From: Syntrophobacterales bacterium
GTDB lineage: Bacteria > Desulfobacterota > Syntrophobacteria > BM002
DNA length: 11,466 nucleotides
NCBI GenBank assembly: GCA_030613915.1
Contig: JAUWKY010000029.1
Span: forward strand, 1-11,466
Reading direction: 5' to 3'
Shown in pieces: positions 99-11,425 of the stretch (position 1 is the first letter of the stretch; each line of letters opens with the position of its first letter). Made by a program: the position numbers and the translations under genes. Under the pieces are notes generated by a model. That model saw only the letters and a program-made list of their open reading frames with translations. It had not been told where the DNA came from and searched no databases.

Positions 99-104
99 TT
101 GCAC

Positions 105-935
105 ATGCTAGGTAAACAGATTAGGATGGAACGGATAATTGACCGGAATACCAACAGAACTGTCATTGTCCCAATGGACCATGGGGTCAGCTCGGGTCCC
201 ATCTACGGCATCACCGATCTCAGAGATGCCATTGAGCAAGTAGTCCGTGGTGGCGCAAACGCCTTAGTAGAACACAAAGGTATGGTGGGTGCTGGCCACC
301 GCCGAAGCGGTAAAGACGTCGGCTTGATCATTCATCTCTCTGCCAGTACTTCACTCTCCCCCTATCCCAACACCAAGACTCTGGTTTGCACGGTTGAGGA
401 AGCCTTGCGTTTGGGTGCGGACGCTGTGTCCATACATGTGAACATTGGCGATGAAATGGAACGGCAGATGCTCAGTGACTTTGGTATGGTCTCTAGCAGA
501 GCCCGAGAGTGGGGTATACCGCTACTGGCGATGATTTATCCGCGAGGGGAGAAGATAGCTAACGAGTACGACCCCGATGTGCTTAAGCATGCCGCTCGCC
601 TGGGTGCTGAGTTGGGTGCTGATATTGTCAAGATATCCTATAGCGGTTCGGTGGAATCCTTTCGGGAAGTGATAGCGGGCTGTCGGGTGCCAGTGGTCAT
701 TGCCGGTGGTGAAAAGATGGAGTCGGACAAGCAGATACTCGAGATGGTGAGAGGGTCCATTGATGCCGGTGGTTCTGGTGTCTCCATTGGGCGTAACATA
801 TTTCAGCACCCAGACCCCACCAGAATGGTCGGGGCGATCAGTATGATCGTTCATGAAGAAGCCACGGTGGAACAGGCTTCGGCCTTTCTCAGCAGCCAGT
901 CATTGGACACTGAAAGGAAAAGGGTAACGGTATGA
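105..935 (+). CDS. 2-amino-3,7-dideoxy-D-threo-hept-6-ulosonate (ADH) synthase, class I aldolase
   Basis: Likely catalyses the first step of the alternative, archaeal-type route to 3-dehydroquinate, condensing L-aspartate semialdehyde with 6-deoxy-5-ketofructose 1-phosphate to ADH. The 276-residue protein is a DeoC/LsrF/FbaB-type TIM barrel. The N-terminal PMDHG motif contains D25. MIYPRG contains Y145. DIVKISYSG contains K176, the expected Schiff-base lysine. The phosphate-binding segments IAGGEK (199-204) and GVSIGRN (225-231) are intact. The D-Y-K spacing (120 and 31 residues) fits what I recall for the Methanocaldococcus ADH synthase. It is followed, with a 4-base ATGA overlap, by DHQ synthase II, its known pathway partner. 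That neighbour favours ADH synthase over a plain fructose-bisphosphate aldolase. The ATG at 105 is chosen by its Shine-Dalgarno site. Confidence 0.9.
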
Positions 936-1924
936 AAATTGCCTGGGTAAGAGTGGATCCCTGGGACAAGGAGCTGGTTACAACCGCTCTTGAGGGCGGG
1001 GCTGCGGCAGTAATGGTGCCGGAGGGCTACCATCAGAAGGTTAAGGAACTGGGACGCATCACTACCATTGCCCCTGATGGAGATCTCAAACCCGAGCGGG
1101 AAGTGGTTTTTTATGAGGTCAAAAGCCAGGAAGACGAAAAGGAGATACTCAGACTGGCTCACAGTGCTACGGTAGTGGTACGTACGACGGATTGGACGAT
1201 AATACCCCTGGAGAATTTAGTCGCTCAGGCGGACAACATCTTTACCGAGGTGGCCAACAGTGAGCAAGCCAGAAACGCTCTTACTGTCCTAGAGCGAGGA
1301 GTCGCTGGGATATTGATCAAGACCGACGATCCGGTGGAACTCAAAAAAACCCTGGCCATTGTGCGCGAACAGGGTGAGCAGGTTCAACTCAGCACTGCGC
1401 GAATAGTCGCTGTACGCCAGGCAGGTTTGGGAGATCGAGCCTGTGTGGATACCTGTAGCCAAATGGAACAGGGGCAGGGCGTGCTTGTGGGCAACAGTAG
1501 TGGTGGACTCTTTTTGGTTCATGCTGAGAGTGTCGAAAATCCCTATGTGGCACCACGTCCCTTCCGGGTAAACGCTGGCCCAGTGCATGCCTACATTAGA
1601 GTGCCGGGTGGTAAGACCCGCTACCTTTCAGAACTTGTGGCTGGTGACCCCGTTTTATGCGTGGATCACGAAGGACGGGCCCAGGAGGCCATAGTAGGTC
1701 GGATGAAAATAGAGCGGAGGCCGTTGTTGCTGGTGACCGCAGAAACTGATGCGGGGGAAGTTACCACTTTGGTGCAAAATGCTGAGACCATTCGGTTGAC
1801 TACACCCAACGGTGAACCCCGCTCCGTGGTAGCCTTGGAGAAGGGTAGCGAGGTCCTGGTGGCTATAGAGTCCGCGGGACGCCACTTTGGACACAAGGTG
1901 GAGGAGACCATTTGGGAAAAATAA
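932..1924 (+). CDS. 3-dehydroquinate synthase, type II (archaeal AroB')
   Basis: Converts ADH to 3-dehydroquinate by NAD-dependent oxidative deamination and cyclisation, replacing the usual DAHP/AroB reaction. The 330-residue length is normal for the family. Its conserved blocks are all readable: MKIAWVR at the N-terminus, then [12 protein letters not shown] (165-176), [10 protein letters not shown] (183-192), FLVHAES (194-200), [19 protein letters not shown] (203-221) and [11 protein letters not shown] (225-235). It is unrelated in sequence to classical AroB. The ATG sits in an ATGA overlap with the ADH synthase stop, and its 3' end overlaps the next gene by 13 bases, so tight translational coupling is expected. 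No damage is seen. Confidence 0.95.
1900..1906 (+). promoter_or_regulatory. Ribosome binding site for the TTG start of chorismate mutase
   Basis: GGAGGAG lies inside the end of DHQ synthase II, five bases before the TTG at 1912. It supports a TTG start overlapping the upstream gene. Confidence 0.65.
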
Positions 1925-2244
1925 CTGATAGCAAACAAGATAGGTCGGATCTAGAGCGACTGCGACAGCAGATCGACAATCTGGACGATGAAATCCTCCA
2001 GTTGCTCAACCAACGTATGCTTCTCGTCCAGGAGGTAGCTACGCTGAAAAACAAGGCAGGAAAAGTCCCCCTGGACCTGAACCGAGAGCAAGCTATTTTC
2101 CGGCGGCTGGCACGTGAGAACAGAGGGCCGCTGGCCTGGGGCGCCTTGAAGAAGATTTTCGGTGAGATCCTGGCCGCTTCTCGAGACATCCAGGCATACC
2201 TAGGGACGAACGACCGGGAGTCTCCTAGCCCGGACATTTCATGA
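1912..2244 (+). CDS. Chorismate mutase, AroQ class, monofunctional
   Basis: Rearranges chorismate to prephenate, the branch point to phenylalanine and tyrosine. The 110-residue all-helical protein has the AroQ active-site set at the right spacing: R18, R35, K46, D55, R58, E59 and probably Q94. It begins with TTG behind a strong GGAGGAG site and overlaps DHQ synthase II by 13 bases. There is no prephenate dehydratase or ACT domain, unlike the PheA fusions common in related operons. Oddity: the last five codons and the TGA stop (2227-2244) lie inside a MITE-like element, so the SPDIS tail is element-derived. Since Q94 is upstream of that tail, activity should be unaffected. If the element is removed, the frame would run to a TGA overlapping the aroD start. 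Confidence 0.9.
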   Translation: MGKITDSKQDRSDLERLRQQIDNLDDEILQLLNQRMLLVQEVATLKNKAGKVPLDLNREQAIFRRLARENRGPLAWGALKKIFGEILAASRDIQAYLGTNDRESPSPDIS

Positions 2245-2408
2245 ATTGCTGTCGCGAGACCGCGAAGATGGGCGTGCCACCTGGCAACCGCAGGGTGTGG
2301 GTTCCGAGGCGTACCTGAACGGTACGTCGCAGGGGCCGACACCCGAGGACGCCAGGAAGGACGGCCATATCCGCGGTCGCAGCAAGTGATTCATGAAATG
2401 TCCGGGCT
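2227..2408 (-). mobile_element. MITE-like hairpin element, copy A (inverted, inside the aromatic operon)
   Basis: This 182-base element starts AGCCCGGACATTTCATGAAT and ends with its near-perfect inverse. The arms extend imperfectly to about 50 bases each (for example GACCGCG at 2258-2264 pairs with CGCGGTC at 2372-2378). The centre has a CGTACC/GGTACG hairpin (2310-2326). Its reverse complement matches the copies at 6075 and 6839 over the whole length, apart from a loss of about 12 bases that removes the CCCGCG/CGCGGG inner hairpin. It is flanked by T and A, which may be a TA target duplication. It has no transposase, so it is non-autonomous. It supplies the chorismate mutase stop and ends three bases before the aroD Shine-Dalgarno site. 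Confidence 0.85.
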
Positions 2409-2411
2409 AAA

Positions 2412-2418
2412 GGGAGGG
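2412..2418 (+). promoter_or_regulatory. Ribosome binding site for the TTG start of aroD
   Basis: GGGAGGG lies just outside the right end of the MITE-like element and four bases before the TTG at 2423. The element therefore sits upstream of the aroD translation signal without destroying it. Confidence 0.6.
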
Positions 2419-2422
2419 CACC

Positions 2423-3091
2423 TTGACGAAGATCTGTGTGTCCGTAATGGTTGAACGGCCTGATCAAGTGCTCGAGACCATGACGAGGGCAAAAGATATG
2501 GGAGCCAACCTGCTGGAGTGGCGGCTGGATGTCACTCGGGAGCCAGAGGTGGAAAGTGTTTTGCGTCAGGCTCCTTTGCCGGTGATCGCCACAGTGCGCT
2601 CCTTAGACCATGGCGGTCATTTCGATGGTAGCAAAGAGGAGCAACTTCGACTTCTCCTCCGGGCAGCGGCAGGAGGAAGTTCATATGTGGACTGGGAGTT
2701 CCGGAGGGAAGAGGATTTGCCGGATGAATTGGCAAGCATGAGAGAGCGAGTGATTTTGAGCTACCATAATTTTCAGGAAACACCTCCGGAAAACATACTG
2801 AAATCTTTGTTCAACGAGATGGCTGCCATCAGGGCTGGGACGGTGAAGGTGGTTACTCTGGCCCAGGAGATGGAAGATAACATCTCCTTGCTCAACCTCA
2901 TTGGCCAAGGCAGGAAACAGGGGCTAGAGGTCGTGGCTTTCTGTCTCGGCTCATTGGGCCGAATCAGCAGGGTAGCCTGTTTGCTGGTAGGCGGTGCCTT
3001 TACCTATGCGGCTTTGGAACGTGGCGCTGAGGCTGCCCCGGGACAGTTCACCCTGGCGGAGATGCACCAACTTCTGGAAATGTTACAATGA
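2423..3091 (+). CDS. aroD: 3-dehydroquinate dehydratase, type I
   Basis: Dehydrates 3-dehydroquinate to 3-dehydroshikimate through a Schiff base. The 222 residues form the type I barrel. LEWRLD (31-36) is the substrate-binding start. H115 in LSYHNFQ is the general base. K142 in TVKVVTLAQ is the Schiff-base lysine. SRV (182-184) and APGQ (205-208) are the C-terminal binding motifs. The start is TTG at 2423, behind GGGAGGG. The next ATG would cut into the conserved first strand. It overlaps aroE by four bases (ATGA). The gene is separated from chorismate mutase only by the inserted hairpin element, so its expression relative to the upstream genes may be altered by that insertion. This last point is inference. 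Confidence 0.93.
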   Translation: MTKICVSVMVERPDQVLETMTRAKDMGANLLEWRLDVTREPEVESVLRQAPLPVIATVRSLDHGGHFDGSKEEQLRLLLRAAAGGSSYVDWEFRREEDLPDELASMRERVILSYHNFQETPPENILKSLFNEMAAIRAGTVKVVTLAQEMEDNISLLNLIGQGRKQGLEVVAFCLGSLGRISRVACLLVGGAFTYAALERGAEAAPGQFTLAEMHQLLEMLQ

Positions 3092-3909
3092 TCAACGCTC
3101 AGACCGCATATGTTGCAATTTTCGGGAATCCGGTTGCGCATAGCCTCAGTCCTCAGATGCACAACGCCGCTTTCAACCACCTTGGCTTGAACCTAGCTTT
3201 TCTGGCCTTTAAAGCGAACAAGGCGTCAGAAGCGGCGGTGGCCATCAGGACACTGGGTCTCCGCGGGGCCAGCATCACCATACCCCATAAAGAGGACATT
3301 ATGGGACATCTGGACGAGGTGGATGATGTTGGTCGGGCCATTGGAGCCGTGAATACAGTGGTCGCTCAAGAGGACAGGTTGCTGGGGTGTAATACGGACT
3401 GGCTGGGGGTGGTCAGGGCTCTGGAGCAGGTAACCGAGCTCGGGGGGAAACGTTGTCTGGTCCTGGGGGCCGGTGGTGCAGCCCGGGCTGCCATATTTGG
3501 ATTGCAGAACAGCGGTGCAGAGGTTTTCCTCATGAATCGAAACCAAGAACGGGGCCACAGCCTTGCGGCAGAGATGAACTGCATCTTCGTGGCGTGGCAA
3601 TCGTGGGATCGTCTAGAGATAGAACTTTTAGTAAATGCCACCCCGGTGGGCATGTCCGCAACTCGGGACCAGAGTTTGATTTCTGCCCAGCAGCTGAAGG
3701 GGGGCATGGTGGTTTTGGACATGGTATACAGACCCTTGGAAACAAGACTGCTCAAAGACGCAGCCACAGCTGGCAGTATTTGCGTTTCCGGGCTGGAAAT
3801 GCTTCTCCACCAAGGTGTGGCCCAGTTTGAGATATGGACTGGCGAAGAAGCGCCCGTTGAAGTCATGCGCCAGGCCCTAGTTGAGTCCCTTGCAAATGAA
3901 ACAGATTAG
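3088..3909 (+). CDS. aroE: Shikimate dehydrogenase (NADP-dependent)
   Basis: Reduces 3-dehydroshikimate to shikimate. The 273-residue length is typical of AroE. The N-terminal substrate domain shows SLSPQMHNAAF (19-29), the catalytic K68 in ITIPHKED, N89 in GAVNT and D104 in NTDWLG. The nucleotide-binding loop GAGGAARA lies at 127-134, and NRN at 150-152 suggests NADPH preference. NATPVGM (183-189) and GLEMLLHQG (235-243) complete the family pattern. The ATG lies in an ATGA overlap with the aroD stop. The 3' end overlaps aroA by 14 bases. All catalytic residues are present. Confidence 0.95.
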   Translation: MINAQTAYVAIFGNPVAHSLSPQMHNAAFNHLGLNLAFLAFKANKASEAAVAIRTLGLRGASITIPHKEDIMGHLDEVDDVGRAIGAVNTVVAQEDRLLGCNTDWLGVVRALEQVTELGGKRCLVLGAGGAARAAIFGLQNSGAEVFLMNRNQERGHSLAAEMNCIFVAWQSWDRLEIELLVNATPVGMSATRDQSLISAQQLKGGMVVLDMVYRPLETRLLKDAATAGSICVSGLEMLLHQGVAQFEIWTGEEAPVEVMRQALVESLANETD

Positions 3910-5158
3910 AACCACTGCAAATCTAGATACAACTGTTCGTATTCCCGGCTCCAAGAGCATCACCCACCGGTACCTCATCATGGCCTCACTGGCCGAGGGG
4001 AGGAGTCAGCTGGGTAACACTCTCTGGTGTGACGACACCCGGTACACGGCGAAGGCTCTTGAGAGTTTGGGGGCACAGATCATACATTCTCCCGAAGCAG
4101 CAGAAGTGACTGGTACCGGTGGCAAACTTGACCATCCTTCGAAACCTATTTTTCTGGACAACGCGGGCACTTCTATGAGGTTACTGACTGCAGTGGCCTG
4201 TTTGGCTCAAGGCGATTGTGTCCTGACCGGGAGTGACCGCATGCACAGGCGACCCATTGGTGAACTTTTGGCTGGCCTACGACCACTGGGTGGGGTTGTT
4301 GAGAGCTTGGGAAAAAATGGCTGTCCCCCTGTACACATTCATGGCAACGGCCTCAAAGGTGGGCGCACTCTTGTAGACGCGAGTCGCTCAAGTCAGTTCG
4401 TCTCCGCCATTCTCCTCGCAGCACCTTATGCCTCCAATCCTGTTGAGATTGGAGTTGAGGGGCTGGTTTCCAGGCCGTACGTCGATGTTACTTTGGATGG
4501 AATGTCCAGGTTTGGTGCGGTGGCCGGTTGGCTGGACGAGGAAACCCTCAGGGTGGAGGCACCTGGACAATATCGGCCTGGCAACTACGATGTGGAGGGA
4601 GACTGCTCTTCGGCCTCCTATTTCTGGGCGGCCGCAGCCATCACCGGGGGGAAAATTACAACACTCAATATCGTTCGAAACAGCCAGCAGGGAGATTTGG
4701 CCTTTCTGGAACTTCTCTCCCAGATGGGATGCAGGATTGAGTGGCATGACCACGGAGTCACCGTACTAGGCGGGCGACTTAGAGGAATTGAAGTGGATAT
4801 GAGGGACATGCCTGACATGGTACCCACTTTGGCAGTAACGGCTGCTTTTGCTGAAGGCACGACGGTCATAGGTAACGTTGGCCACCTCCGTATCAAAGAA
4901 AGTGATCGTCTCCAAGCCGTCGCTGAAGGCTTGCAGAGATTAGATGTACAGGTTGATGAGGGGCAAGACAGCCTTACCATCAGAGGCGGAAGTCCTGTTG
5001 GAGCCCTGATTGATCCCCATAATGATCACCGAATTGCCATGAGTTTCGCAGTAGCTGGCCTGGTCACGAGAGGGGTGCGTATTGCAGATGAGACCTGCGT
5101 GGACAAGTCCTTTCCAGAATTCTGGGACAGATTTGAGGAACTGTATGAGAGTAAGTAG
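3896..5158 (+). CDS. aroA: 3-phosphoshikimate 1-carboxyvinyltransferase (EPSP synthase)
   Basis: Transfers the enolpyruvyl group of PEP to shikimate 3-phosphate. From the ATG at 3896 the protein has 420 residues. Visible motifs are PGSKS (17-21, K20), NAGTSMRLL (89-97), RMHRRPIG (115-122), RSSQF (164-168), DMVPTLA (307-313, with the likely catalytic D307), KESDR (335-339) and DPHNDHRIAM (373-382). I prefer ATG 3896 to the upstream in-frame TTG 3881 because MKQI is followed at the usual distance by the PGSKS motif. The Shine-Dalgarno is weak either way, so coupling to aroE is likely. The loop residue matching Pro101 of the E. coli enzyme is Leu96, while the Gly and Thr matching positions 96 and 97 are kept. 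Confidence 0.95.
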   Translation: MKQIRTTANLDTTVRIPGSKSITHRYLIMASLAEGRSQLGNTLWCDDTRYTAKALESLGAQIIHSPEAAEVTGTGGKLDHPSKPIFLDNAGTSMRLLTAVACLAQGDCVLTGSDRMHRRPIGELLAGLRPLGGVVESLGKNGCPPVHIHGNGLKGGRTLVDASRSSQFVSAILLAAPYASNPVEIGVEGLVSRPYVDVTLDGMSRFGAVAGWLDEETLRVEAPGQYRPGNYDVEGDCSSASYFWAAAAITGGKITTLNIVRNSQQGDLAFLELLSQMGCRIEWHDHGVTVLGGRLRGIEVDMRDMPDMVPTLAVTAAFAEGTTVIGNVGHLRIKESDRLQAVAEGLQRLDVQVDEGQDSLTIRGGSPVGALIDPHNDHRIAMSFAVAGLVTRGVRIADETCVDKSFPEFWDRFEELYESK

Positions 5159-5188
5159 TAAGCAAGCACCACCCACCAAGCAAAGCCA

Positions 5189-5977
5189 ATGATCGAAGAC
5201 AAGGACATACATGTGGGAATAATCGGCGGTCTGGGGAAAATGGGCCGTTGGTTTCATCGATTTTTCGGTGAACTTGGCTACCAGGTATCAGTGGCTGATC
5301 TTGGTACCGAAACCACACAGGAGGATCTGGCGAAAACCTGTAATCTAGTCCTGGTGGCGGTACCCTTGCAGCATACGGTAGAGGTGGTCCGCGCTATCGG
5401 CCCTCTGGTTCAAAATGATGCACTACTCATGGACCTCGCTTCACTTAAGAGTGAGGTGGTGAGCACTATGCTCGAGGTCTCAGCCGCTAGCGTCATAGGG
5501 ACTCATCCGCTTTTTGGGCCTGGGGAGCCCAACGTTACCGGACAGACTGTGGTGATGTGTCCCGGTCGAGGGCAATGGTGGCAAGAATGGCTTCAGGGTG
5601 TTCTGGTAGAGGGCGGCGCCCGGGTGGAGGTGGTTACGCCTGAGGTTCATGACTATTATATGGCCGTAGTCCAAGGCTTGACTCACTTTAGTACCTTGGC
5701 CTTGGGACTCACCATCGACTCATTAGGTGTTGATCTTAAGGACTTGAAGCGTTTTGCCACCCCTGCGTTCCATCGAAGGCTCATGGAAATCACCCATCTC
5801 CTTTCCCAAGATGCAGACCTGTACGCAGCCATGCCAATGCTAAATTCCACCTACGGGGTATTTTATAGAGAATTCGAAAGGATCATCCTTGACCTGAAAG
5901 GAGTAATTGCGAAAAAGGACATCGAGGAGTTTATTCGGCTTTTCGACCGGGCTAGGAGCCACTTTCGTTCATCCTGA
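5189..5977 (+). CDS. tyrA: Prephenate dehydrogenase
   Basis: Oxidatively decarboxylates prephenate to 4-hydroxyphenylpyruvate for tyrosine synthesis. The 262 residues contain a Rossmann motif GLGKMG (14-19). D37 at the end of the second strand suggests NAD preference. The family block GTHPLFGPG (104-112) has the catalytic H106, and HDYYMAVVQGLTHF (154-167) follows. There is no fused chorismate mutase or ACT domain; the mutase is the separate gene at 1912. It begins 30 bases after aroA with no good Shine-Dalgarno site, so its start is the least certain of the operon, although the glycine-rich loop sits at the usual distance. It is the last recognisable aromatic gene here. No clear intrinsic terminator follows. 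Confidence 0.92.
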   Translation: MIEDKDIHVGIIGGLGKMGRWFHRFFGELGYQVSVADLGTETTQEDLAKTCNLVLVAVPLQHTVEVVRAIGPLVQNDALLMDLASLKSEVVSTMLEVSAASVIGTHPLFGPGEPNVTGQTVVMCPGRGQWWQEWLQGVLVEGGARVEVVTPEVHDYYMAVVQGLTHFSTLALGLTIDSLGVDLKDLKRFATPAFHRRLMEITHLLSQDADLYAAMPMLNSTYGVFYREFERIILDLKGVIAKKDIEEFIRLFDRARSHFRSS

Positions 5978-6074
5978 CCCTGATGGAATCCAAGTGGTTT
6001 CTCTTGCTCCTCGCAAGCAATCATGCTATAAGAAATTAATCCAGCTCTGTGTGTCCTACACTGTATGTAAATCT

Positions 6075-6267
6075 AGCCCGGATATTTCATGAATCACTTA
6101 CTGCGACCACGGATATGGCCGTCCTTCCTGGCGTCCTCGGGTGTCGATCCCTGCGACGTACCGTTTAGGTACGCCTCGGAATCAATCCCGCGGTAGCGCG
6201 GGACGGTTGCCCGGTGGCACGCCCATCTTCGTGGTCTCGCGACAGCAATTCATGAAATATCCGGGCT
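6075..6267 (+). mobile_element. MITE-like hairpin element, copy B
   Basis: This 193-base copy has perfect 20-base terminal inverted repeats (AGCCCGGATATTTCATGAAT and its inverse). The arms continue imperfectly to about 50 bases, including GACCACG (6105-6111) pairing with CGTGGTC (6230-6236). Two inner hairpins are present: CGTACC/GGTACG (6157-6173) and CCCGCG/CGCGGG (6187-6202). The flanks read CT before and AG after, compatible with a TA target. It lies between tyrA and an unknown gene, ending about 30 bases before that gene's start. The remaining gap, 5978-6074, holds nothing I can identify. Confidence 0.88.
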
Positions 6268-6297
6268 AGGCGCATCCCTTTTTCTAGGAAACGCTCC

Positions 6298-6840
6298 TTG
6301 ACAATGGCCGAAGTTATCCAACTGGAGTTTTTTAAACGTAAACAGGCTGCAGCCAGGGGATTTAAGTCCTGGTCAAAACGGTTTGGCGACAAACTAGATG
6401 AGCAAACCAGGTTGTCCGATCTTGCGGACAACACTCTGCTTTTTCTTATCTCTCCGGGCGACCAGAACATCTTTGCCCTTTATGAACTGGTCATGGGCGT
6501 AAAGAACCTTGGTACCGCTTCCGACTTTTTCCAGTTGGATAAAGCGGAAAAAATGGAAGTAATAGATATCTCGATTTATGTGCTAGATCAACTCCGTTGC
6601 GAATCTATGCGTCGACTCGACTGGTTGGAGAGTGGAGCAGGGCAACCGTTGCCGATTGTAGAACTAGTCGAACAGTACCCACTCCTAAAAGGGCTGGGAC
6701 CGGCCTCGATTCCAACGTTCAACGAATCTCATCCCAAATACCAGGTATATAGGGAGCTTCCTGAGCTTGAAAGGGAGACTTTTCTACGTAAACAGATTCC
6801 TGAGGCCATTAACGCGTTTGGCAAAAGGCTTCAGGATTAG
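6298..6840 (+). CDS. Unrecognised 180-residue protein flanked by two MITE-like copies
   Basis: I do not recognise the family. The protein is soluble and mostly helical, with a basic N-terminus (FFKRKQAAARGFKSWSKRFGD) and no signal peptide or membrane segment. Notable stretches are DNTLLFLISPGDQN (near 44-57) and LLKGLGPASIPTFNESHPKY (near 128-147). Coding character is supported by the long open frame and AGGAA at 6286-6290, seven bases before TTG 6298; ATG 6304 is the alternative start. The TAG stop (6838-6840) is the first bases of MITE copy C, so the original C-terminus was probably altered. Deleting the element as a GGAT-flanked insertion would continue the frame to a TAG at 7103-7105, adding about 20 residues. 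The gene lies 30 bases after copy B. Confidence 0.65.
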   Translation: MTMAEVIQLEFFKRKQAAARGFKSWSKRFGDKLDEQTRLSDLADNTLLFLISPGDQNIFALYELVMGVKNLGTASDFFQLDKAEKMEVIDISIYVLDQLRCESMRRLDWLESGAGQPLPIVELVEQYPLLKGLGPASIPTFNESHPKYQVYRELPELERETFLRKQIPEAINAFGKRLQD

Positions 6841-7032
6841 CCCGGATATTTCATGAATTGCTTGCTGCGACCACGGATATGGCCGCCCTTCCTGGCGTCC
6901 TCGGGTGTCGGCTCCTGCGACGTACCGTTCAGGTACGCCTCGGTACCAATCCCGCGGTACCGCGGGACGAGTTGCCCGGTGGCACGCCCATCTTCGTGAT
7001 CTCGCGACAGCAATTCATGCAATATCCGGGCT
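6839..7032 (+). mobile_element. MITE-like hairpin element, copy C
   Basis: This 194-base copy is in the same orientation as copy B and nearly identical to it. The terminal inverted repeats run AGCCCGGATATTTCATGAAT at the left, with one mismatch at the right. The inner hairpins are CGTACC/GGTACG (6921-6937) and a perfect 16-base palindrome at 6951-6966. GGAT occurs directly before its first T and directly after its end (6834-6837 and 7033-7036), a possible 4-base target duplication; copies A and B do not show this. Its first bases form the stop codon of the preceding gene. The open frames crossing it are not genes. Confidence 0.87.
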
Positions 7033-7193
7033 GGATGTGTCGTTTCCCTCTGATGGCAGCGATGGGGCGGTGAAGCTTACCTTGTTGCCAGGTGGCATTG
7101 CATAGGCTTTGGTTAACGCCAACAATTTTCGCTGGGATTTGGACTAAGAATCTGCTAAAAAAGAAAGCTGTTTCTCATAACGTAGGAATCCTG

Positions 7194-11257: not shown

Positions 11258-11290
11258 GATTGCGGATTTCGCATTGCGGATTTCGGATTT
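11258..11290. repeat. Heptamer tandem repeat (GATTTCG family), left member of an inverted pair
   Basis: Four and a half 7-base units alternating GATTGCG-like and GATTTCG-like forms begin four bases after the Fe-S protein stop. A related array in opposite orientation lies at 11376-11399, so the two could pair across about 85 bases. Between them (11291-11375) I see no gene. Confidence 0.75.
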
Positions 11291-11375
11291 AGAGCTACAA
11301 ATTCGAGACCGCAGGATATGGTTAGATCGAACTAGACAGAGCAAGTCAAGAAATATTGTTTTTCACAATCCCCAA

Positions 11376-11399
11376 CCTGCAATCTGCAATCTAAAATCC
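11376..11399. repeat. Heptamer tandem repeat (CTGCAAT family), right member of an inverted pair
   Basis: Units CTGCAAT, CTGCAAT and CTAAAAT followed by CCC. The reverse complement (ATTGCAG units) matches the GATTGCG-type units at 11258-11290. It lies about 25 bases before the next gene start. Confidence 0.65.
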
Positions 11400-11425
11400 C
11401 CGGTGTGACTCGGGAGAATGAATCA

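Follow-up and report, generated by a model that had tools for sequence, protein, structure and literature searches.

Arms that change together and a strand-specific wobble bias in a hairpin-forming miniature transposable element family of Syntrophobacterales

The stretch of DNA analysed here (hereafter, the window) comprises 11,466 nucleotides of a Syntrophobacterales bacterium (positions 1 to 11,466 of contig JAUWKY010000029.1, assembly GCA_030613915.1) and carries three copies, A, B and C, of a non-autonomous, hairpin-forming miniature inverted-repeat transposable element (MITE), precisely inserted, mostly at YTAR targets with duplication of TA. Throughout the family to which these copies belong, the two arms of the hairpin change together far beyond slid and shuffled controls, both in the ends and in the inner stems. 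Furthermore, the constraint looks strand-specific: mismatches are not all tolerated alike, those that make G.U on the minus strand being the more frequent. The reading that we favour, with a probability of roughly one half, is that of an IS1380-type MITE whose hairpin is kept mainly as a one-strand RNA, paired changes being supplied by copying from arm to arm.

The original prediction, which was made from the letters of the window alone, had described copies at 2227-2408 (inverted), 6075-6267 and 6839-7032 as a MITE-like hairpin family. These coordinates agree with the sequence and the bounds shift slightly: because the sites of copies A and C are empty in relatives and hold a single TA there, the element proper in both is that given in Table 1, the bounds of B being set by analogy. 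By the original bounds, the copies measure 182 bp (A), 193 bp (B) and 194 bp (C), and they align as one family. The element is short, has inverted ends of about 20 bases and encodes no transposase; a Pfam search of 17 open reading frames (ORFs; 14 main ones and 3 antisense over copies A and B) bore out the statement that the window holds no transposase, and the 3 antisense ORFs had no Pfam match at all. The fold of copy A on the window plus strand reaches -125.2 kcal/mol, against a mean of -68.6 for 200 shuffles (z -13.0), and that of its other strand -107.8 kcal/mol (z -10.8). Rfam gave no matches over the window elements and 14 related loci, the sole gathering-level match being a tRNA in L119.

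The element is present in high copy number. Its own genome (G000) is an incomplete assembly (2.25 Mb, 351 contigs, 79% complete), and copy B has at least 40 matches of 177-194 bp there (40 of 117 candidates scored), so that the idea that these three copies might be the only ones does not hold; the same search gave 34 additional shorter or opposite-strand arm matches. The 19-base end occurs at 204 places of this genome with up to three mismatches, and its reversed control at none. Among 59 genomes, 12 were matched: the own genome, eight of the same genus and three of the same family. All 11 other family genomes searched, each sampled through at most 13 scored candidates, contain the MITE; the 47 genomes outside the taxonomic family gave no match at E<=0.001, nor did copy B match plasmid and phage collections at E 1e-5. 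Out of 411 nhmmer rows, near-full-model matches were kept and partial, second-strand and duplicate ones removed, which left 173 distinct copies aligned to 182 columns: 172 from the 12 family genomes (48 of them from the own genome) and one from a named record (L119).

The structure on which pairing was assessed is the minus-strand fold of the consensus sequence, one long bulged hairpin with 71 pairs; it was preferred because the consensus folds that RNAalifold produced from all copies were weak on both strands (-17.9 and -12.5). The claim that the arms covary had been drawn from two pairs in the three window copies: C2235/G2400 in A, where B has T6083/A6259 and C has T6847/A7024, and A6109/T6232 in B, where A has G/C. 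All these bases are correct; as evidence they are thin, and the claim holds with 173 copies. Double changes from one Watson-Crick (WC) pair to another number 72 at the 71 pairs, whereas ten slides gave 0-5 and none of 300 random pairings more than 15; 40 of the 72 lie at the 20 pairs of the ends and 32 at the 51 pairs of the inner stems. When the structure was derived from the own genome and the count made on the 125 copies of other origin, 48-49 double changes were obtained (0-5 slid). Similarly, 51 gap-free copies (all of 182 bp, at most six per genome) show both-sided changes at 28 pairs and 63 cells, compared with 4-11 pairs and 4-15 cells when slid, and no shuffle out of 500 equalled the observed value for any of the five measures. 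Counts made without a tree indicate that paired change builds up with divergence: 44 copy pairs with up to 12 differences contain 11 double changes (0-2 slid), and 72 copy pairs with up to 20 differences contain 30 (0-6 slid). One copy bears a private matched change, C-to-G at position 3 together with G-to-C at position 180. As regards covariation above phylogeny, the answer is partial: no pair is significant individually (see below), and only the summed statistic (1592) exceeds all 2000 simulations (null mean 697, standard deviation 135, maximum 1324), although under the second of two nulls 19 of the 71 pairs have p<=0.05, the slid sets having 2-5. A further measure, the number of WC pair states seen in exactly one copy, came out contrary to expectation (26 vs 34-45 slid) and was dropped, slid columns being richer in low-frequency combinations.

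Departures from pairing are asymmetric. Single changes away from WC pairs at 64 pairs yielded A.C 258 times and G.T 125 times, read on the plus strand; an A.C on this strand is a G.U on the minus strand, which at copy A is the plus strand of the window. With the arms paired wobble-free, the counts were 262 and 131, and with the plus-strand fold 261 and 145. On internal branches the ratio A.C:G.T is 56:15 (64 pairs); after columns 109-119 were dropped from the branch-wise count, the 58 pairs outside this misaligned stretch gave 54:11 on internal and 179:101 on terminal branches. Columns favouring A.C number 35 and those favouring G.T 14, and counted as cells the figures are 418 vs 214. No such bias is seen at 36 unpaired columns (G>A 0.496, C>T 0.463; T>C 0.311, A>G 0.388). 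In 169 of 172 copies (one copy containing N was omitted) the minus-strand fold is the more stable, with means of -110.2 vs -95.6 kcal/mol. Selection on the folded arms, which the original prediction had left between RNA and DNA, is supported, with one refinement: the wobble pattern suggests a single strand.

A second family, of 164 bp and with the same ends, resembles the MITE in these respects, to a lesser degree. The interiors of the two families share no word longer than 8 bases, and the 182-bp model matched none of 26 loci of the 164-bp family. One strand is the more stable in all 29 copies analysed (3 of 32 matches were left out), WC-to-WC double changes number 37 (1-4 slid), and wobble events fit the stable strand in 52 cases vs 27 (p 0.0066). 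Single copies of other elements, at L128, L140, L150 and L158, also favour one strand.

Insertion could be followed at individual sites. The site of copy A is empty in four relatives (G003, G002, G004 and G005), and the same 182-bp element is present in a fifth, G007 (L075); the site of B is empty in G001, where the target is CA, whereas the copy has TA; and the site of C is empty in G003, G005 and G007. A search of four genomes with the sequences flanking the 48 own-genome copies gave 50 empty copy-genome sites, at 37 of which the flanks join exactly, and 5 of 11 candidates were true orthologous filled pairs. Among 17 empty sites that were read, YTAR stood in 11 and the rest had CTGA, TTGA, CGCG, CCAG (twice) and TTGG in the relative. 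Flanks were tallied in 160 copies, the 13 others of the 173 having divergent or damaged ends; the commonest combinations are CTAG/CTAG (38), TTAG/CTAG (22) and CTAG/CTAA (18), and the pair adjoining the TA is G..C in 131, A..T in 16 and A..C in 8. Together, the flank tally and the empty sites indicate that the usual target is YTAR, that TA is duplicated and that the G..C pair travels with the element. The alternative that this pair belongs to a 4-bp duplication is disfavoured in the MITE family, where TTAG/CTAG and CTAG/CTAA are common and empty sites mostly fit TA alone. The MITE has inserted many times in one bacterial family, often later than the split of close species.

The ends of the MITE are those of IS1380-family insertion sequences of other Proteobacteria. 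An end-pattern scan of named genomes, from which the MITE interior was excluded, gave at least 109 stretches; the 80 among the matches listed lie mostly in Gamma-, Beta-, Alpha- and Deltaproteobacteria, and 44 of these 80 loci are short elements, with another end (up to 5 mismatches) in inverted orientation no more than 360 bp away. The full-length transposon that the original prediction had proposed to look for was found only outside the bacterial family. The same ends bound elements encoding an IS1380 transposase (L397-L400 and L407): (i) Methylobacter marinus A45 has four 1582-bp copies with an identical, intact transposase of 448 amino acids; and (ii) Noviherbaspirillum malthae has one 1568-bp copy with a transposase of 461 amino acids. 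Both transposases belong to IS1380 (NF033539; 427 and 380 bits, cut-off 180). A third element, of 1563 bp (L155, Magnetococcales), has an IS1380-type transposase interrupted by a stop. The M. marinus and N. malthae elements have in common with the MITE the terminal repeat CCCG(G/A)ATATTTCAT and a TA-centred target; they encode a transposase, whereas the MITE is transposase-free and has an extra G..C pair at its ends. Among the matches listed there are 62 short-element candidates, of which 12 are flanked by identical non-palindromic YTAR 4-mers (TTAG/TTAG in 7, CTAA/CTAA in 5) and 12 by half-matched ones. An IS1380-type transposase presumably moved the MITE and would now be lost or located elsewhere.

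Other transposases were also searched for in the 12 family genomes. PF13358 (DDE_3) occurs in one of them, at a locus that lacks the ends, and DDE_Tnp_1 (PF01609) gave 13 matches in five, two of these loci having end pairs and none of the pairs bounding the gene; the own genome, 79% complete as it is, has no match to DDE_3, DDE_Tnp_1_4 or DDE_Tnp_1. Tc1/mariner-like IS630 MITEs also use TA, and an IS630/mariner origin was considered on account of the TA duplication; it is unsupported, the search of the 12 family genomes having given no DDE_3 transposase with matching ends.

Several variants of the element were observed. A subfamily in G011 (L070, L300, L301, L302, L305, L306, L308 and L309) and G006 (L292) has both ends switched to GCCCGCATTATGCACGA and a homologous interior. 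The own genome contains versions of 238-239 bp with an extra GC-rich hairpin in one arm (L053:1555-1792 and L056:65-303) and 57-bp versions with two ends and short, differing middles (L048:1540-1596 and L054:158-214). Palindromes of 26-30 bases made of ends only (G005:C1:189802-189827, L086:6447-6476, L108:5949-5978, L129:7457-7486 and L142:6158-6187) are perhaps the smallest end-only elements. One copy, L021, lies at the centre of a perfect 30-base palindrome close to a contig end, which may be a genuine target or have arisen in assembly.

According to the reading that we favour, lineages that continue to spread would keep the hairpin chiefly as the RNA fold of one strand; many paired changes would arise when one arm is copied onto the other through hairpin template switching; and a strand-specific filter would then retain G.U and eliminate other mismatches. 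As for the role of such an RNA, protection or processing of a hairpin transcript, as for the ERIC and Correia elements, is our guess. RNA is probably the one-strand molecule in question; it may instead be a single-stranded DNA step, as in DNA, too, G.T exceeds A.C in stability. The lack of an orientation bias and of a tie to host transcription, given below, makes the favoured strand a property of the element; for the same reasons, read-through transcripts are not an obvious carrier of the RNA.

A number of results speak against this reading. No individual pair of the 71 attains E<0.05 in an R-scape-like test, and per-pair tests under two nulls leave none at a 5% false discovery rate; with slid pairs scoring less than the null mean, these nulls seem to be on the conservative side. 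Only one WC-to-WC double change (0-2 slid) occurs in the 27 disjoint copy pairs that are closest to each other (up to 8 differences), and the 5 orthologous pairs contain no paired change among 20 paired-column differences. With wobble-free pairing, the asymmetry of the 164-bp family is not significant (41:28, p 0.15), and two further elements with the same ends, L139 and L402, have no clear strand preference. The orientation of the copies to genes is unbiased (37 vs 39 between co-directional genes; 125 copies classified), and the wobble asymmetry set against host transcription is 39:27 vs 49:23 (p 0.29). Concerning the origin of the element, the MITE duplicates TA and the IS1380 elements duplicate 4 bp (TTAG, TTAG, CTAG, GTAG and CTAG in five copies). 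Moreover, a PF13701 search of the MITE-bearing family gave no IS1380 element with these ends: this domain is found in three of the 12 family genomes, and not in the own genome, and none of its loci has the ends at up to 4 mismatches, two of the three having end matches with 6 mismatches.

Arm-to-arm copying might also act by itself, with template switching during replication homogenising the hairpin DNA, no selection on the fold, and paired changes as mutational by-products. Conversion between arms was among the explanations first proposed, and part of it stands: the double changes look blind to mutation type, their transition:transversion ratio (27:13 in the ends, 19:13 in the inner stems) equalling that of single changes (114:62 and 269:177), as expected from arm copying and unlike evolution through G.U steps. 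Standing A.C sites are also repaired to WC more often in copies with inner double changes (40 of 147, 27%) than in the others (174 of 1064, 16%; p 0.0025), and the mechanism has been described for RNA genes (excerpt of PMC8794818). However, the rarity of double changes in the closest copies, and their absence from the 5 orthologous pairs, indicate that copying is not frequent and count against a one-step process. Nor is copying sufficient alone, given that pair 27-157 remains C.A in 164 of 173 copies and pair 82-100 remains A.C in 162 of 172, and that the excess of A.C over G.T requires a strand-specific force, which a one-strand fold under selection in spreading lineages would provide. We therefore regard copying without selection as unlikely.

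Symmetric recognition, the other explanation proposed at the outset, holds that the transposase requires like ends, so that end variants spread only when both match. Double changes are indeed densest in the ends, and the subfamily of G011 and G006 changed both of its ends while keeping a homologous interior. Nevertheless, it is not the whole story, as 32 of the 72 double changes lie in inner stems far from the ends, and a separate reading of each end gives no cause for the private matched change at positions 3 and 180; as the main cause, it seems quite improbable to us. An artefact of shared ancestry, inter-copy recombination or alignment would agree with the lack of individually significant pairs and with the ranking of column pairs, whose top three (112/116, 112/117 and 113/117) fall in a misaligned indel region and in which structural pairs make up 14 of the top 35 (15,931 in total). 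Yet slid partners have the same ancestry and do not reproduce the double changes, the summed statistic lies above every simulation, and the hold-out structure, the gap-free 51-copy alignment and the second family all concur, which makes an artefact very improbable indeed. Beyond the MITE itself, IS1380-type ends across Proteobacteria might carry a number of miniature elements, unrelated to one another, each a mobile RNA hairpin of one strand; selection on the RNA fold, visible as G.U wobble retained on a single strand, would aid their persistence, and transposon and structured RNA would form one unit. This wider proposal is tentative and, on the whole, doubtful, all the more so given L402 and the Borrelia precedent discussed below.

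Within the window, positions 99-5977 hold a run of co-directional ORFs whose Pfam assignments point to aromatic amino acid synthesis (DeoC/LacD-type aldolase, 3-dehydroquinate synthase II, chorismate mutase, 3-dehydroquinase I, shikimate dehydrogenase, EPSP synthase and prephenate dehydrogenase); the aldolase and the 3-dehydroquinate synthase II presumably represent an archaeal-type pathway entry. Copy A lies inside this run, between the chorismate mutase and 3-dehydroquinase ORFs, and provides the TGA stop of the former (2242-2244). Copy C starts at the TAG stop of the upstream ORF (6838-6840). Another repeat, gattgcggatttcgcattgcggatttcggattt facing caatctgcaatctaaaatcc, is found at 11258-11400, and sequence resembling it splits MITE copies at L119:7292-7646 and L097:4001-4316. 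Positions 1-60 are repeat-like, with ctgacacctgaaacctgacacctgg; a similar-looking repeat in the flank of one copy (query 945-990) matched many places in relatives.

Table 1. Copies of the element in the window and their terminal inverted repeats.
Feature	Coordinates	Strand	Length	Remarks
MITE copy A	2228..2407	-	180 bp	TA at 2226-2227 and 2408-2409; opposite in orientation to B and C
MITE copy B	6076..6266	+	191 bp	TA at 6074-6075 and 6267-6268
MITE copy C	6840..7031	+	192 bp	left TA at 6838-6839; right TA copy is TG at 7032-7033
Copy A terminal inverted repeat, one end	2228..2246	+		GCCCGGACATTTCATGAAT; IS1380-type end
Copy A terminal inverted repeat, other end	2389..2407	-		
Copy B terminal inverted repeat, left	6076..6094	+		
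Copy B terminal inverted repeat, right	6248..6266	-		
Copy C terminal inverted repeat, left	6840..6858	+		
Copy C terminal inverted repeat, right	7013..7031	-		one mismatch relative to the left end

The long hairpins of bacterial MITEs can be taken as a by-product of inverted ends. Many copies across related genomes allow one to ask directly whether the hairpin is maintained, on which strand, and whether selection or mutation bias is responsible. Testing for wobble asymmetry is simple and could be extended to ERIC, Correia and other families. At the same time, caution is advisable, as covariation, the usual sign of a functional RNA, can partly stem from arm-to-arm copying.

Regarding the open-access literature, of which the numbered articles are cited here and below from excerpts, we found no title on IS1380 MITEs, no description of one in the excerpt of PMC3281130, and nothing on IS1380 together with piggyBac and target duplication; for the end sequence, the sole match was an article on a fish vaccine. 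The only bacterial case that we found linking MITEs to compensatory change or covariation concerns IS605-derived stem loops of Borrelia plasmids, in which compensatory changes and G-U pairs preserve the stem (PMC2775950). Transposon-derived stem loops with compensatory changes are, therefore, already in print; for a MITE family in which covariation is counted on a tree and wobble is biased to one strand, we found no precedent in that literature. Both the Borrelia stem loops and the MITE derive from transposons, the former being short, subterminal and of another insertion sequence family, and the excerpted report contains no strand test or tree-based count, unlike the present analysis (PMC2775950).

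Other known systems resemble the MITE in anatomy or in mode of change. The ERIC (RU-1) elements of enterobacteria are 127-bp repeats with short terminal repeats and TA at their ends, which are co-transcribed and affect mRNA stability depending on their orientation (PMC2229807); the MITE differs in its IS1380 ends and its hosts, and the likeness noted here is one of anatomy. The Correia (NEMIS) elements of Neisseria, MITEs with TA at their ends and other hosts, are likewise similar in anatomy; RNase III cleaves their stem-loop transcripts (PMC2229807, PMC10969869). For ERIC and Correia elements, an effect of the transcripts on mRNA by way of RNase E and RNase III has been reported (PMC2229807, PMC10969869). 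Chunjie, a MITE of 178-235 bp with 38 full copies in Geobacter uraniireducens that has inserted in an operon (PMC10969869), could be a relative, to judge by its description. Finally, paired changes in the stems of RNA genes (rRNA) can be explained by the copying of one stem half onto the other (PMC8794818); compared with such template-switched hairpins, the MITE is mobile and bears the wobble asymmetry as an added sign.

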